This document shows positions 5,066 through 10,634 of a stretch of 38,182 nt of DNA, in pieces. The translations under genes were made by a program, and so were the position numbers. The notes beneath the pieces are model-generated. The model saw nothing but the letters and a program-made list of their open reading frames with translations, searched no databases and was not told where the DNA came from. Numbering within the stretch: position 1 is the stretch's first letter; each line of letters starts with the position of its first letter. The DNA comes from a candidate division TA06 bacterium ADurb.Bin131 (GTDB lineage Bacteria > Ratteibacteria > UBA8468 > B48-G9 > DTJG01), in assembly GCA_002070645.1 (NCBI GenBank), contig MWDQ01000066.1, positions 1 through 38,182 on the forward strand, written 5' to 3'.

Positions 5066-5337
5066 TTTTTAAGATTCCTCTGTTTACATCATATTTTAAT
5101 TTTTTAGTTGCTACTTCTTGGGAGGAAGGTTCAAATAAAAACCTCATTACCTTCGCGGATATCTATTTATTATAATCCTTATTCAGAAATAATTTAGCCG
5201 ACTTTTTACAGATTATCTGAATAAATTCAATTTTTTGAGCCCTTATTTCAGATGCCCTGAGTATAGCAAAGTAAGTCAATAGAAAATCCTGGAGTTTCCC
5301 TGCACACAATTTCCCCTTGTTTCTTATTATGCAAATT

Positions 5338-6393
5338 TCATTTCTGGCGTTGCCTTACTATTTCATTGAGATCGTGTAATAGTTTTCCATCTTTTGTTTG
5401 CCAGTACCTGGGTCCTGCTACACCATGTTCATCACGCTTAAAACCAAGTTTTATATCTATAATCTTAGCCAGTTCTGAAATCGAGTAAATTCTACCATCA
5501 CCCTTGTATTTTAATTTGTTTTGATTTGCCACTACTTCGGCCCGTTCATTCTTAAACACCTTACCATGAAAAAAATATAGGGTTTGCCCATTTCTTATCA
5601 TGCCAGCATCCACCAATTCTTGCAAGTTCACCTTCCTGGCTTTTCCCGTATATTTTAAAGATGGACCAGTAGATATTTTTATATCATCATATGTTGGAAT
5701 TTCAAAAAGATCAAAAGGTAAGCCAAGAGCGTTCCAAATCTCTGATATTTTAGATTCTGCCTCCTTTGCAAGATTTTCCCTCTTTATTTTTAGTTGTTCA
5801 ATTTTTTCTTCCTTTGTTTTTATATCACTGTTGATATCCTCAATTTTATTATCGTACTCTTGCTTGAGACGTTCTTCATCTGACATAGCTTTTTTTATTT
5901 CCATCTCCCGTTCATCTATTTTTTTGAATACGTTTCTTTTCTGCAAGCTATCATTATGTAAAAGATCAGAAAGTATTTGCCAGACTGATTCCTTATTGAG
6001 GTCTTGTCTTTTAATGGAATATAATAACGACCTTTCAAACGCAACCCCCCGAAGTGGGCTATAAATCCTGATTTCAGTACCATTTGCTATCACTGCAATT
6101 AATGCACCTTCATCAAAAGTATAATTTTTTATCTGCTCAACATAGTCATTTAGGTTTTCACTATAGTTTTTAGTATCAATAATCACCTTACAATCAGTAG
6201 GCACATTCTTAATGTAAACATCTATTTTCCCTCCACTTCGTGTGCGGTATTCAAATTCGAGGTCTTCCCTTTTGTGACCTAACAATTCAAGTATTGGCAC
6301 AATGACTTTTTGTTTTACGTTTTCTTCAGTAGGTCCTATATCACTCTCTTTGAGTTTAGCAATCCTTTCTATTTCATATTTTATTTCAACCAT
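5338..6393 (-). CDS. Putative restriction endonuclease: PD-(D/E)xK nuclease with coiled coil and RAMA-like domain
   Basis: The protein has 351 residues from the ATG at 6393, which sits six bases after GGAGG; the frame stays open 32 codons upstream but that extension looks non-coding. Residues ~1-130 resemble the N-terminal nuclease domain of type I HsdR-like proteins. GGKIDVYI (D58) and VIIDTKN (D73, K75) form a plausible PD-DxK active site, with E47 or E49 in the preceding helix/strand. Residues ~160-215 are a charged coiled coil. Residues ~255-346 (LVDAGMIRNGQTLYF ... YSISELAKI ... RYWQTKDGKLLHDL) match the layout of the RAMA domain, a predicted DNA-binding module found in restriction enzymes and methyltransferases. 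No helicase motor is present, so it is not an HsdR. It closes the methyltransferase cassette, 135 bp after the HhH-GPD-like gene. Confidence 0.7.
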   Translation of the reverse strand: MVEIKYEIERIAKLKESDIGPTEENVKQKVIVPILELLGHKREDLEFEYRTRSGGKIDVYIKNVPTDCKVIIDTKNYSENLNDYVEQIKNYTFDEGALIAVIANGTEIRIYSPLRGVAFERSLLYSIKRQDLNKESVWQILSDLLHNDSLQKRNVFKKIDEREMEIKKAMSDEERLKQEYDNKIEDINSDIKTKEEKIEQLKIKRENLAKEAESKISEIWNALGLPFDLFEIPTYDDIKISTGPSLKYTGKARKVNLQELVDAGMIRNGQTLYFFHGKVFKNERAEVVANQNKLKYKGDGRIYSISELAKIIDIKLGFKRDEHGVAGPRYWQTKDGKLLHDLNEIVRQRQK

Positions 6394-6528
6394 TTTCCGC
6401 CTCCTTCTATTATGTACGATGAAACCTCGTATAGAACTCCAAATATATATGAAGTGCTGACTTCGCTGGGATATGGGTAAACAAGACAAACCATATTTGC
6501 TATCCTATGCAATACGGAGAAATTGTCT

Positions 6529-7737
6529 TCAAGATGAAATCCCACCTCCACCGCCCTCATTTGTCTTTCCACTTTTCCATCCTGTTCTTCCTTCAATTGA
6601 AATGCTATTTGGAGCATTTAATATTTTTCTCTCTAATTGACAAATACCGCTAAAAATACAATATCTATCATCCTTAAAAATCAGTCTGTCCTGTGGGATT
6701 AGACTTTCTAATTTCTTTTCATTCACTTCTTTCTCTGGTGGACAAAAGCGTTTATTAGGACGGCATGCTATCTTGCCAAGTCTGAAGATAAGGTAATCCA
6801 TTGATGCCGGTGTTGGAGGTCTATGATTATCTGGAATTTCACCCCATTCTTCCCATACTTTCCTCCATGCTTCACGGTTTAACCTATCCACCATAGAATA
6901 TTGATAACAAAAGACATCCAGGAAACTGGCAAGTAAAGGAATACGAAATTGAAGAATACCCGTTCTCAAAGATACTCTCATGGTATTTTTATCACTCATT
7001 ACATCTAATTTCTCGATGTTCCTTTTGTATTTCCATACGCCTAAGTCAGCCATGTCTCTCAGGAACATATGAGCCTTCTTAGTAGAAAAACCGTATCGTT
7101 CTTCAGCAGTTAATGCCTTGACGATTTCAATCACATCTCCACTGTGAACCTCATTAATTCTGTATGCAGACGAATCATATTTTTCTACCAGTAATTTTGC
7201 AGAATTCAACATCCAGGGTTTTCGTTTATCTCTCTGCGATTGTGCCCCAAGAAAATTGAGAAGTTCATCTACCAACAAGTCATTATCCTTTACTTTCTCA
7301 GGTTTGAAACAATCGGGGTGTCTTTTATAAAATTCAAAAGGATTGCTTCTTGCATGAACATCGATATTGAAATCTTGAATTGCAGTAAAAAACCTTACGT
7401 TGGCAATTTCCTCCTTATCCAAATCAAGGGTATCCAATTGAACTTTAATAGTATTACCCTGATAAATGTCCTCTAAAACCGTGGCTACCGCTAAACATTC
7501 TCTATTTGGATTGACCTTCGGAGCTAATACTTCCTCATGATGTTCCTTCCAATATTTGTGAAACTCAGAGATATATTCGGAAGGTAAAGTCGTTTTTTTC
7601 TGATAAAGAAATCTGTTAATCTCGTTCAATACATTGGCAGCCAATTCGTACTCACCTTCGCCTCTAAACCTTTCGGAATCGAACTTTACATCGCAATACT
7701 GTGCAAGTTTTTCAAGAAAATTGAGAAAATTAGACAT
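6529..7737 (-). CDS. HhH-GPD-like protein with four-cysteine (probable FeS) C-terminus
   Basis: This 402-residue protein appears to be a divergent member of the HhH-GPD DNA glycosylase superfamily. Residues ~208-230 (YGFSTKKAHMFLRDM) resemble the helix-hairpin-helix, with K220/K221 where lyase-type enzymes have lysine. Residues 248-260 (SDKNTMRVSLRTG) resemble the V-D-T-H-V-x-R segment, placing D249 at the conserved catalytic aspartate. Cysteines C325-X6-C332 and C360-X5-C366 mirror the two outer spacings of the endonuclease III 4Fe-4S loop, but 27 residues separate the pairs instead of two. The C-terminus is glycine-rich (GRTGW ... NEGGGGG). Residues 1-150 are unrecognised. Its ATG overlaps the stop of the upstream small gene by 8 bp. 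Base excision of damaged, mismatched or modified DNA is inferred; residues and spacing are observed. Confidence 0.6.
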   Translation of the reverse strand: MSNFLNFLEKLAQYCDVKFDSERFRGEGEYELAANVLNEINRFLYQKKTTLPSEYISEFHKYWKEHHEEVLAPKVNPNRECLAVATVLEDIYQGNTIKVQLDTLDLDKEEIANVRFFTAIQDFNIDVHARSNPFEFYKRHPDCFKPEKVKDNDLLVDELLNFLGAQSQRDKRKPWMLNSAKLLVEKYDSSAYRINEVHSGDVIEIVKALTAEERYGFSTKKAHMFLRDMADLGVWKYKRNIEKLDVMSDKNTMRVSLRTGILQFRIPLLASFLDVFCYQYSMVDRLNREAWRKVWEEWGEIPDNHRPPTPASMDYLIFRLGKIACRPNKRFCPPEKEVNEKKLESLIPQDRLIFKDDRYCIFSGICQLERKILNAPNSISIEGRTGWKSGKTNEGGGGGISS

Positions 7738-8164
7738 ATTTTGCCGCCCTGTTAAATTCTTTCCAACTCCTCATTCTTAAAATATAGATCCTCATATCAC
7801 TTACATTATTCTCCGAAAGCAATCTTTCCGATAAGAAAATATATTTAATGCTTTTGTCTCTTAATACCTTAACAACATCCTTAAATGCCAATTCTTTGAA
7901 ATGTCTACTTGTTATCAAAAGCACTTTATTCATATTCGCTAAATCAAATTTTAGTTCCTTAGGCGAACTCCATTCGTTTTCAAAAAGAGCCTTCTCTTCA
8001 TATTTACTAATATCTCGTGAACTTCCATAATTTCTAGGAACAATTAACTTGTTTTTTATATAAATTGATATGGCATCGAACTCAAAAACAACATTTCCAC
8101 AAAATTCAATAATCCCTTTTGTGATTCTATCGGATAAAGATATCAGCCCGTTTTTTCTCTGCAT
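7730..8164 (-). CDS. Small unrecognised protein of the methyltransferase cassette
   Basis: The protein has 144 residues and I do not recognise it. It has no signal peptide, membrane segment or cysteine pair; the single cysteine is C22. The composition suggests a compact alpha/beta fold with beta-strands such as NVVFEFDAISIYI, KVLLITSR and IKYIFLSE, and a basic C-terminus (RIYILRMRSWKEFNRAAKYV). The stop overlaps the start of the HhH-GPD-like gene by 8 bp, so the two are translationally coupled and probably act together. The gap to the upstream methyltransferase is 120 bp. The ribosome site is weak (AAGG about 10 bases before the ATG). A role as specificity subunit, inhibitor or scaffold is possible, but nothing in the sequence decides between them. 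Confidence 0.6.
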   Translation of the reverse strand: MQRKNGLISLSDRITKGIIEFCGNVVFEFDAISIYIKNKLIVPRNYGSSRDISKYEEKALFENEWSSPKELKFDLANMNKVLLITSRHFKELAFKDVVKVLRDKSIKYIFLSERLLSENNVSDMRIYILRMRSWKEFNRAAKYV

Positions 8165-8284
8165 ATAGATTTGCCTTTATTTGCAAGAATTTTCTAGTTG
8201 ATAAGAATTAGGGGCGTATTTTCTATAAAGATTGTATGGTAAAATACTGGCGGCAATTTAGATTTTTTCCACATTAATGTCAAC

Positions 8285-9853
8285 TCACCCATCTTTATTT
8301 CCCCTCTTTTCATAAACAAGCAAATAGTGATGAATTATCTTTAAATATTCGCTTTGAGTTTGAATTTCTGAGTTTTGCTTTTCCTTGGTAACGACTATTA
8401 TTTCCTTGAGCCATAAAATGTCAGACATTAATAAATCCACAATTCTTTTTGCAAGAGGTTCTACGTATCTATCTATTCTTATATCCTGAGTTTGGATCAC
8501 CAGAAATCCACCGTTGTTTATATTAGATAACTCTCCATCTACGATTTTTTTTATTTCATCTAAGTACTGTTCAATATTTGAATAGTGAGAACTATCATTT
8601 AAAAATGGGGCTCTGATGTAAAGCAACCCCTTACTTTTTTGTGTATTTCTTTTGGTACATTTTAATTTATTACTAAGAGATGGAACAAAAGATATAGATG
8701 AATAACCTCGTCCATTTGAATACCTATCAATTACATTCTTGTTCAACAATTTCTCAAAATCTTTCTCTGGAAATATCCACACTGTTGTGGTCTCAATTTC
8801 GTCTAATTTTCTCTTTAATGGAGGTTTTTCTAAAGTAGGGACAACCAAACTATAATCTGTTTTTCCTTCTCTTATACTCAAGGAAAAAGGTGTTTTAGGC
8901 TTTTCAAAAATTGGGAGATACTCATGAGCCAAAAGAAGAAAATTGTATTTTATGCTATTAGCATACCAAAACCCGGTGGTTTTGCAGTTATGCTGCCTTT
9001 TGATAACAAGTTCTCTTAATTTAAAGCCAGCATCCAGATAAACGTTTATCAGACTGAATCCCAAAGGAATTACATGTTTCTTACTACGGGTGTCTCCAAT
9101 TAAAATAGCACATTGTCTACCTGGTTTTAACACCCTAAAACTCTCTCTGGCAACTTTTGACATTTCTTTCAAAAAATTACCCATGTCAAAAAAAGATAAA
9201 TCTCCTTCCTTTGAATCAGTATAATGGATTATGTTCGCATAAGGAGGATGGGCGCAAATTAAGTCTATAGAATTATCCTCCAGAAATGATAGATCTCTGG
9301 CGTCACCAATTAATAGTGTTGGTTCATAAATCTTCCGGCAACTTTGTTCTTCGATAAAAGTTAATTGTTTTGATTCCATGCTAAAATTTACATTTTCCCT
9401 TGCCAATTCAATAGCTTTGTCGTTAATATCAAGCGCTATACACTTTCTTCCCAAAAGTTTACATTCTACAGCAGTAGTTCCCGCACCACAAAAATAATCT
9501 AAAATTAACTCACCTGGTTTTGAATACTTAAGAATAACATTTCTTGGAATATAAGGAGACCAATTACCTCTATATTCTCCACTATGAGTTGCCCATTTAC
9601 CCCTTTGTTTAAAACTCCAGACAGTGGTTTGCTCTTCCTTAAAATCCTTTGGATAAAGTGTTCTTATCTTTTTACAAGACCTCAAAGCACTAATATTTAA
9701 ACCTTTGGTCCTGGTAATAAGATGCTCAATATATCTGAATGTGACCCCATACTTCTGGCCAATTTCCAAATCAGGCGTCCCTTTCATTTTTTCCTGTAAG
9801 ATTGCTTCCTGAAGATCTCTCTCAGTTTTAAAACCTGCTTTCTGATTACGCAT
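8285..9853 (-). CDS. Amino-type (N4-C or N6-A) DNA methyltransferase with degenerate second lobe
   Basis: This 522-residue protein transfers methyl groups from SAM to exocyclic amino groups in DNA. Residues ~25-50 resemble a helix-turn-helix. Residues ~97-113 form motif X. Motif I is LDYFCGAGTT (118-127), followed by an acidic SAM-binding strand (IALDIN). The catalytic motif IV is HPPY (202-205), an allowed variant of D/N/S-PPY. The order X-I-IV resembles the gamma class rather than the common beta order. Residues ~247-318 and ~449-516 look like two copies of the same strand-helix pattern: an IGDTR/TQDIR turn, a PLxxx helix, LREIVI-like strands and an LLLAHEYLPIF versus IHHYLLVY ending. The second copy lacks its own SAM and catalytic motifs. 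The ATG at 9853 follows AGGGAG closely. It is the first gene of the cassette. Confidence 0.85.
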   Translation of the reverse strand: MRNQKAGFKTERDLQEAILQEKMKGTPDLEIGQKYGVTFRYIEHLITRTKGLNISALRSCKKIRTLYPKDFKEEQTTVWSFKQRGKWATHSGEYRGNWSPYIPRNVILKYSKPGELILDYFCGAGTTAVECKLLGRKCIALDINDKAIELARENVNFSMESKQLTFIEEQSCRKIYEPTLLIGDARDLSFLEDNSIDLICAHPPYANIIHYTDSKEGDLSFFDMGNFLKEMSKVARESFRVLKPGRQCAILIGDTRSKKHVIPLGFSLINVYLDAGFKLRELVIKRQHNCKTTGFWYANSIKYNFLLLAHEYLPIFEKPKTPFSLSIREGKTDYSLVVPTLEKPPLKRKLDEIETTTVWIFPEKDFEKLLNKNVIDRYSNGRGYSSISFVPSLSNKLKCTKRNTQKSKGLLYIRAPFLNDSSHYSNIEQYLDEIKKIVDGELSNINNGGFLVIQTQDIRIDRYVEPLAKRIVDLLMSDILWLKEIIVVTKEKQNSEIQTQSEYLKIIHHYLLVYEKRGNKDG

Positions 9854-10085
9854 TTCTCCCTTATTTCTGTTTTTTCTCTCGACACGACTCTTTAGTAGGG
9901 GGCAAGCCCCCTACCTAAGGATCCGCAAAGCATTGCGGACCCATTCTCCCCCAAACATGAGGGACTTCTTCCCTCATACTCCCTCACAGTATGCTGTACT
10001 GGGTTTTCAAATGTATCCTTGCTATCTGAACCAGCACACTGGAATTTCTGTGAATGTCTTCAGTTATAGACCCATCGTACAAAAT

Positions 10086-10183
10086 TCACCTTCTCGCGCT
10101 TAGTGCTATACGGTGCTCTTTCTTCATCGCACCAGCACCGCTCCATTCAAATCCTGCTTATAAAAAAATTATTGGGCGGTGCA
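10086..10183. repeat. Direct repeat, copy 1 (98 bp)
   Basis: This copy matches 10475-10572 at 95 of 98 positions without gaps; the offset is 389 bp. It starts in the loop of a degenerate hairpin (TCACCTTCTC) and includes the hairpin at 10103-10138. It ends with TGGGCGGTGCA, the last 11 bases of tRNA-Val in reverse complement. Homology stops exactly there: copy 1 continues into CCCGAC, whereas copy 2 continues into the intact tRNA. This looks like a partial duplication or an insertion event at the tRNA 3' end. Confidence 0.9.
10103..10138. repeat. Bulged hairpin, family HP2, member 1
   Basis: The arms are GTGCT and AGCAC (lower stem) and GGTGC and GCACC (upper stem). An ATAC bulge sits on the 5' side and the loop is TCTTTCTTCATC. 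Members at 10207-10242 and 10492-10527 share bulge and loop while the stem bases change together. Confidence 0.8.
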
Positions 10184-10243
10184 CCCGACTCACCTGCTCG
10201 TCGGGCCTGCTATACAACGCTCTTTCTTCATCGCGTTAGCAGG
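10184..10243. repeat. Double hairpin unit: HP1 plus HP2, member 2
   Basis: HP1 is CCCGAC, loop TCACCTGCTC, GTCGGG (10184-10205). HP2 follows without a gap: CCTGCT, bulge ATAC, AACGC, loop TCTTTCTTCATC, GCGTT, AGCAGG (10206-10243). Compared with member 1, the upper stem changes from GGTGC/GCACC to AACGC/GCGTT and the outer pair flips G-C to C-G. Pairing is preserved at every changed position. Confidence 0.8.
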
Positions 10244-10470
10244 GATTTGGCGCCCCGTCGCTCGGTCGCGATCTGCTCCTCGCTCCTTAAGGGGGATCTC
10301 CCCCTTAATCTTCCCCCTACCGCGTGGGGAACGCCTCTTTCCCCACTCCTCTTTCATCCAACCTATAAAATACCGGTTGGATGCTCCCACGACGCCTCAG
10401 CTCGGCCACCCGCATAGGTCTTCGCTTGCTCAGACCTATACATCGTCTTGCAAACTACGCTTCGGTCAGC

Positions 10471-10527
10471 GGGCTCACCTTCTCGCCCTTAGTGCTATAC
10501 AGTGCTCTTTCTTCATCGCATCAGCAC
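10471..10527. repeat. Double hairpin unit: HP1 plus HP2, member 3
   Basis: HP1 is GGGC, loop TCACCTTCTC, GCCC (10471-10488). HP2 is GTGCT, bulge ATAC, AGTGC, loop TCTTTCTTCATC, GCATC, AGCAC (10492-10527), with one wobble and one mismatch at the base of the upper stem. A fourth HP1-like hairpin with related loop TCGCTTGCTC lies at 10414-10439. Confidence 0.75.
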
Positions 10528-10572
10528 CGCTCCATTCAAATCCTGCTTATAAAAAAATTATTGGGCGGTGCA
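10475..10572. repeat. Direct repeat, copy 2 (98 bp), overlapping the tRNA-Val 3' end
   Basis: This is the partner of 10086-10183 with three substitutions. Its right end overlaps the 3' end of the tRNA-Val gene by 11 bp, so it forms the natural downstream flank of the tRNA. It contains TTCAAATCCTGC at 10535-10546, the perfect inverse of the tRNA T-arm at 10570-10581. Confidence 0.9.
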
Positions 10573-10634
10573 GGATTTGAACCTGCGGCCTCCTCCGTGT
10601 GAGGGAGGCGCTCTTGCCCCTGAGCCAACCGCCC
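10562..10634 (-). tRNA. tRNA-Val (anticodon CAC)
   Basis: The 73-nt minus-strand cloverleaf has acceptor stem GGGCGGT/ACCGCCC, D-stem GCTC/GAGC, anticodon stem CCTCC/GGAGG with loop CTCACAC (anticodon CAC, reading GUG), T-arm GCAGG-TTCAAAT-CCTGC and discriminator A. All four helices pair without mismatches. CCA is not encoded. The DNA just after the 3' end contains seven T residues, and then an exact inverse copy of the T-arm strand in the trailer (10546-10535). It is the last recognisable gene of the minus-strand block and ends inside the 98-bp repeat. Confidence 0.97.

Follow-up and report, generated by a model that had tools for sequence, protein, structure and literature searches.

In the literature consulted, the only restriction glycosylases described are enzymes of the PabI type (PMC4357717, PMC10273834). 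The text of the 2023 review of restriction glycosylases contains neither "HhH" nor "helix-hairpin-helix", and no description of a helix-hairpin-helix (HhH)-GPD protein as a restriction component was found in the literature, most subscription papers and REBASE lying outside the scope of this survey. A second group of relevant systems is of the DpnII type: LlaDCHI, located on pSRQ700 (PMC6458302), is a DpnII isoschizomer specific for GATC (PMC4190342), and in Streptococcus pneumoniae the second-methylase slot is filled by DpnA, which methylates single-stranded DNA (PMC3573125). The locus analyzed here lies within a 38,182-nucleotide stretch of DNA from candidate division TA06 bacterium ADurb.Bin131 (contig MWDQ01000066.1, positions 1–38,182; this whole stretch is referred to as the window), and pairs a DNA methyltransferase (MTase) gene, MT, with a gene encoding a 402-residue iron-sulfur (FeS) protein, G402. 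We assign a probability of roughly 60% to the reading that MT and G402 constitute a two-gene, type II-like restriction-modification (R-M) system in which a DNA N-glycosylase serves for restriction. Such a pair would probably confer self/non-self immunity by removing bases from foreign DNA, not by cutting its backbone.

Scanning 84,980 species genomes revealed 17 loci, mostly encoding G402 at 83–90% identity, and the loci of this family span about ten phyla. The titles of the metagenome-assembled genomes (MAGs) that carry them name Caldisericia, Zixibacteria, Chloroflexi/Dehalococcoidia, Cloacimonadota, Deltaproteobacteria, Atribacteria, Coatesbacteria, Planctomycetota, Actinomycetota and others; misbinning is possible for individual loci, but not for the overall pattern. 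More distant forms (445–449 aa, 35–37% identity) were identified in six further genomes, one of them from the same class as the window. No G402 was found in phages, plasmids or viral contigs. In 16 of the 18 loci with an intact G402 gene (G) and available upstream sequence, an MTase gene is located directly upstream (the window, L005, L006, L008–L013, L015, L019, L024, L066, L067, L069 and L070; L010 is counted as paired although its MT is frameshifted). This pairing is far beyond chance, and MT plus G402 is a conserved unit. The unit is also mobile and has spread horizontally between distant bacteria. It is compact and often lies between unrelated housekeeping genes, in places within operons, its insertion contexts being folE/folP (L006), a LeuA-like gene/valS (L019), leuS/a methyltransferase gene (L012) and a site beside purA (L013). 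In two Chloroflexota loci (L009 and L010), a DUF763 gene containing a helix-hairpin-helix motif adjoins the unit upstream of MT.

The partner of G402 can be exchanged. In L070 (genome G878), there is a 4-bp overlap between G and the gene of a beta-class MTase that is not homologous to MT (CcrM/DpnA-like, m6A type, i.e. producing N6-methyladenine), and no homolog of MT is present in this genome; G402 thus retains some MTase as its partner, whichever that may be. Conversely, a 60-kb phage-like contig (L128, IMGVR_UViG_3300005573_000104) encodes four MTases, one of which is an MT core (82% identity), and no G402 gene was detected near it within the 22 kb read. Phages are known to encode orphan MTases by which restriction enzymes are blocked (PMC4190342). 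The same contig also encodes a polymerase A fused to a uracil-DNA glycosylase (UDG) domain, a DnaB-type helicase and an SbcC-like protein.

G402 (positions 6529–7737, minus strand), the predicted restriction glycosylase, has no match in the Pfam, NCBIfam or PADLOC models, and searches of the PDB with its sequence returned none. Comparison of the family profile (12-row alignment A3) with that of a Chloroflexota FeS family of about 330–350 aa gave an hhalign E-value of 1.1e-8. PF10343 (Q_salvage) does not match G402 itself; it is instead the Chloroflexota linking proteins that match, with member L051 reaching 31.3 bits against the Pfam cut-off of 25. This FeS/Q_salvage-like family (L046–L055), present in a minority of the sampled Chloroflexota genomes, is an uncharacterized bridge from DUF2419 to the FeS HhH-GPD enzymes. 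Within the G402 alignment (n = 27 sequences), residues K220, K221, D249 and R258 and cysteines 325, 332, 360 and 366 are invariant. They fit the hairpin lysine, the catalytic aspartate and the C-x6-C...C-x5-C FeS set of EndoIII and MutY, the active-site placement of K220, K221 and D249 being taken from the alignment and not from a solved active site. The spacing between Cys2 and Cys3 is greater than in EndoIII/MutY (27-residue insert), and the long forms of 445–449 aa carry a zinc-finger-like insert between Cys1 and Cys2.

An AlphaFold2 (AF2) model based on a 27-row alignment is all-helical (predicted template-modelling score, pTM, 0.78; mean residue confidence, pLDDT, 77); an earlier model from a 13-row alignment was poor (pTM 0.44). 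The top Foldseek match of the model was DUF2419/Qng1 (E 4e-4, probability 1.0), followed by MUTYH and MutY (probability ~1.0, TM-score by target up to 0.63), and AGOG and the phage protein PUGT gp46 (8z2n, probability 0.97) were matched as well. All confident matches are HhH-GPD-superfamily-type enzymes, and unrelated folds scored poorly. As judged from the model, the fold of G402 is that of the HhH-GPD superfamily, of which this protein is a divergent branch and not an EndoIII-family member. A prior examination of the window (the sequence-only reading) had assigned the 402-residue protein to the glycosylase superfamily and noted an FeS-like cysteine set, and profile and structure comparison agree with that assignment. 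The family is under strong constraint: dN/dS, the ratio of nonsynonymous to synonymous substitution rates, is 0.04–0.07 for G402 and 0.09–0.12 for MT. Since synonymous sites are almost saturated (mean proportion of synonymous differences, pS, 0.64) while the G402 proteins are ~85% identical, this conservation results from selection, not from very recent transfer.

The last ~30 residues of G402, for which AF2 confidence is low, include a near-invariant ISIxGxTGW...EGGGG tail (codons 379–402 at positions 6532–6603, minus strand). Two relics, L073 (genome G1285, ~6.2–6.7 kb) and L074 (genome G177, ~7.4–7.8 kb), retain only the final ~22–31 G402 codons (EGRTGWKSGKTNEGGGGG...), which could have been left by random decay or kept as the end of a recombination site. 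When the tail-coding region was considered as the end of a mobile element, its borders proved tight and short downstream stretches were common to some loci; neither a recombinase nor a terminal repeat shared consistently by the loci was detected.

MT (522 aa; positions 8285–9853, minus strand) was recognized earlier as an amino-type MTase with an HPPY motif, and it is indeed of the N6_N4 type (PF01555, E 9e-33; PADLOC MTase_II, E 6e-99). Its motif order is gamma, with an FxGxG-type motif I preceding HPPY. The protein is composed of (i) an HTH (helix-turn-helix)-like N-terminus (residues 1–60), (ii) a catalytic core (~61–320) and (iii) a C-terminal part of ~170 residues (350–517), which is a degenerate duplicate of the core's second half (hhalign E 1.4e-9). 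The core family is tied to DpnII operons, relatives of the MT core being located in D12-MTase/DpnII operons (L129, L131 and L132). The MT core is 53–55% identical over ~250 aa to the product of the last gene of such an operon in Fusobacterium, and two viral contigs show a compact D12–DpnII–MT-core order, in which the DpnII and MT-core genes overlap by 4 bp. In L069 (genome G904), genes for a D12 MTase, DpnII (PF04556, E 1e-91), MT, a small protein and G stand in one row. This is the only G402-family locus with DpnII, and the window contains neither this endonuclease nor a D12 MTase. The beta-class MTase of L070 is in turn 51–57% identical to MTases encoded in the second-methylase slot of D12/DpnII operons, among them that of LlaDCHI on pSRQ700. 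Since two unrelated MTases from one functional slot each accompany a G402-type protein, GATC is the best guess for the recognized site, and the predicted product of MT is m6A at GATC. The C-terminal segment of the MT core (KRQHNCKTTGFW and its neighbours) is conserved between the G402-linked and DpnII-operon groups and should hold target recognition.

In the proposed mechanism, MT would methylate adenine within a short palindrome, likeliest GATC, and thereby mark self DNA. G402 would bind the same site when unmethylated, flip out one of its bases, probably the adenine, whose N-glycosidic bond it would hydrolyse by means of Asp249 together with Lys220/221. The abasic site may then be broken by a lyase activity of G402, by host apurinic/apyrimidinic (AP) endonucleases or at replication. 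Because many loci have no adjacent nuclease, scission would have to come from G402 itself or from host AP endonucleases, or would not occur at all, and the small gene and nearby nucleases would be optional accessories. Base excision, methyl sensitivity, the GATC site and the base removed are what we infer for this pair. A more detailed proposal, to which we give even odds, is that it represents a second, independent restriction glycosylase, FeS HhH-GPD/Qng1-like, which excises an undamaged base at unmethylated GATC under the protection of a solitary DpnA-slot methylase, and which occurs in about ten phyla as a compact mobile pair with exchangeable methylases and optional nucleases.

Several observations weigh against the restriction interpretation. 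The HhH-GPD model PF00730 gave nothing at E≤1 with G402, direct profile comparison with EndoIII-type proteins (hhalign) was not significant, and Qng1, the closest fold neighbour, acts on a free nucleotide and not on DNA. In two loci (L007 and L065), G is intact but no MTase gene adjoins it. Pairing was counted starting from intact G genes, and there may be many MTs that have no G402 beside them. The GATC specificity is a best guess drawn from operon association and homology, and the window shows no particular depletion of GATC (0.61, compared to 0.39 in relatives lacking the system, for 38 kb only).

The remaining genes of the locus are more variable. Four open reading frames (ORFs), all on the minus strand, are present at positions 5338–9853, as the sequence-only reading had reported, and it had treated them as one cassette. 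The gene between MT and G differs by locus, encoding the 190-aa protein S, a 96-aa protein or a zinc-ribbon protein, or being absent. In the window, S (positions 7730–8292, minus strand) is decayed: alignment of the intact, full-length proteins (~190 aa) of relatives L006, L010, L011 and L015 by tblastn places its start at 8292 and reveals an in-frame TAG (8194–8196) and a frameshift at an A-run (8151–8156). The 144-residue protein noted previously as unrecognized is the open, last part (7730–8164) of this broken gene; the TAG and frameshift, compared with the ~190-aa relatives, rule out a complete gene of that size. No Pfam, NCBIfam or PADLOC family includes S, and its PDB matches are weak and unconvincing. 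By eye, its fold might be ADP-ribosyltransferase-like, which is not claimed here.

The ORF downstream of G402 encodes N351, a putative nuclease with a PD-(D/E)xK (HSDR_N-like), coiled-coil and RAMA-like layout (positions 5338–6393, minus strand). The nuclease and RAMA-like assignments made earlier find matches, albeit below the gathering thresholds (HSDR_N_2, PF13588, E 1.8e-4; RAMA, PF18755, E 1.2e-5), but its start is very probably further downstream than in the 383-aa ORF: a good ribosome site (GGAGGCGG) precedes the ATG at 6393, from which 351 aa would be translated. N351 has no match in other G402-family loci, being found in the window only, which rules out the four-gene cassette; only MT and G402 are found together repeatedly, with a variable small gene, and the nuclease is a neighbour within the same insertion, outside the conserved unit. 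The earlier proposal of a glycosylase effector followed by nuclease cutting therefore stands in part. The effector role is supported by the MTase pairing, the MTase swap and the orphan viral MTase, whereas a single cassette with a nuclease is not, as the RAMA nuclease is confined to the window and many loci have no nuclease next to them. Similarly, the sequence-only reading would have been contradicted by homologs of the glycosylase-like protein and the nuclease occurring mostly apart from such MTases, or by another fold. The outcome is mixed: G402 homologs are indeed accompanied by MTases of this kind and the model has an HhH-GPD fold, but the nuclease is not part of this association.

A protein combining HARE-HTH with a PD-(D/E)xK-type domain (PADLOC REase_II, E down to 4.5e-7) was observed in L016, L017, L021, L071, L074, L060/L072 and L065. 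It comes with one or two proteins of 70–92 aa, in place of the MT C-terminus and the G402 N-terminus. In L016, L017, L021, L071 and L074, both MT and G402 are truncated, with decay of varying extent, as would be expected if G402 without MT were harmful. L065 is a counter-example, since its G is intact next to the HARE-type nuclease and two small genes although no MTase is present. RAMA and HARE-HTH have only been suggested to read DNA methylation (PMC11037411).

Other roles of G402 have to be weighed against restriction. FeS HhH-GPD enzymes are mostly repair enzymes, G402 matches the MutY/MUTYH fold, and R-M loci carrying a repair gene are known; G402 might thus be a base-excision repair companion, like Mig.MthI or Vsr, for damage that the MTase causes or promotes, such as bases that are deaminated or wrongly methylated. 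We consider this unlikely. MT is of the N6/N4 type and the alternative partner is CcrM/DpnA-like (m6A), so there is no 5-methylcytosine (m5C) partner and no m5C-to-T problem to be solved, and the earlier objection that an m5C-type repair explanation does not fit is upheld. Moreover, a repair accessory would serve no system in the many loci that have no other adjacent restriction gene, and G402 is more conserved than MT. The MTase swap, the orphan phage MT core and the DpnII-operon links of both MTase types favour restriction over repair. A similarly low likelihood is given to G402 as a second effector added to a GATC (DpnII-like) defence, acting with or after other nucleases (DpnII, HARE-HTH, RAMA), e.g. 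on modified or hemimethylated phage DNA. The D12–DpnII–MT–G order of L069, the HARE-HTH nuclease with two small genes beside the intact G of L065 and the RAMA nuclease of the window would suit this role, but L006, L012, L013, L019, L024, L066 and L067 contain intact MT and G without any adjacent nuclease.

The two remaining possibilities are more doubtful still. The Foldseek match to gp46 suggests that G402 could make an addition to a base, or replace it, at sites with or without the mark of MT, in the manner of PUGT, a thymine-hypermodification enzyme of phages, and we know of no counterpart of its Gly-rich C-terminal tail in repair glycosylases. Such a base modifier is improbable, as there are no companion biosynthetic genes, the glycosylase Lys/Asp and FeS residues are retained, and PUGT is a more distant match of G402 than the hydrolytic Qng1 and MutY are. 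Least probable is a queuosine-salvage-like nucleotide hydrolase, either metabolic or nucleotide-depleting, with only an incidental link to MTases. Qng1/DUF2419 is the top fold match and the related Chloroflexota family reaches PF10343, but the MTase linkage and its swap, together with horizontal spread, argue against this function, and queuosine-salvage genes are absent beside the annotated loci.

The whole insertion in the window (~5.5 kb; positions 5070–10562) extends from the 3' end of a tRNA-Val gene to a histidine-kinase gene. The tRNA-Val(CAC), identified by ARAGORN at positions 10562–10634 (minus strand), forms its upstream edge. In six genomes of the same genus, the tRNA-Val and kinase genes directly adjoin and the insertion is absent. 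No integrase or transposase is encoded within the inserted segment. The region beside the tRNA gene (10078–10572) is a dispersed repeat, comprising a 98-nt pair (97% identical) and a third, 60-nt copy, that duplicates the 3' end of tRNA-Val and is also present in L110 and L116. Akin repeats occur near the same site in relatives of the genus that lack the cassette.

If the restriction interpretation is true, base-excision immunity has evolved repeatedly and is common among uncultured bacteria, using a second fold, unrelated to that of PabI, which was drawn with its FeS cluster from a repair or nucleotide-salvage superfamily. Profile libraries miss such systems, as PADLOC, NCBIfam and Pfam hold no G402 model. 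In its proposed logic, MT plus G402 resembles the R.PabI (HALFPIPE) group, i.e. R.PabI, R.CcoLI and Helicobacter pylori homologs specific for GTAC: a palindrome protected by an MTase, base excision, a weak lyase activity and a mobile two-gene unit (PMC4357717, PMC10273834). They differ in fold, which is a half-pipe in R.PabI and, in the model, all-helical FeS HhH-GPD/Qng1-like in G402, and in site, GTAC for R.PabI and predicted GATC for MT plus G402, with G402 known here from sequence and model. The DpnII-type systems (DpnII, LlaDCHI) share their second-methylase slot with the MT core and swapped beta MTase families, whereas in the window, which has no DpnII endonuclease or D12 MTase, the extra gene encodes a glycosylase-fold protein; both arrangements are combined in L069 only.

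Qng1/DUF2419, a queuosine-5'-monophosphate N-glycosylase, is like G402 in structure, in the equivalent Lys/Asp positions and in N-glycosidic bond chemistry, but its substrate is a free nucleotide, and PF10343 is not matched by G402. To our knowledge, Qng1 has neither an FeS cluster nor an MTase linkage. With MutY/MUTYH and EndoIII, G402 has in common the HhH hairpin, the catalytic Asp and four FeS cysteines (C-x6-C and C-x5-C ends); it differs in the Cys2–Cys3 insert, an N-terminal helical part of ~110 residues, the Gly-rich tail, the MTase partner and its mobility. A DNA glycosylase as an anti-phage effector, as proposed for G402, is represented by Brig1/Brig3, which have an AAG/UDG-like fold, target modified phage cytosines and lack a protecting MTase (PMC13160076). 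The m5C mismatch-repair companions Mig.MthI and Vsr are distinguished by their m5C MTase partner, in place of which G402 has N6_N4-type or CcrM/DpnA-like enzymes. With type II R-M systems, finally, G402 shares an adjacent cognate MTase at 16 of 18 loci, the class of which is swapped in L070.

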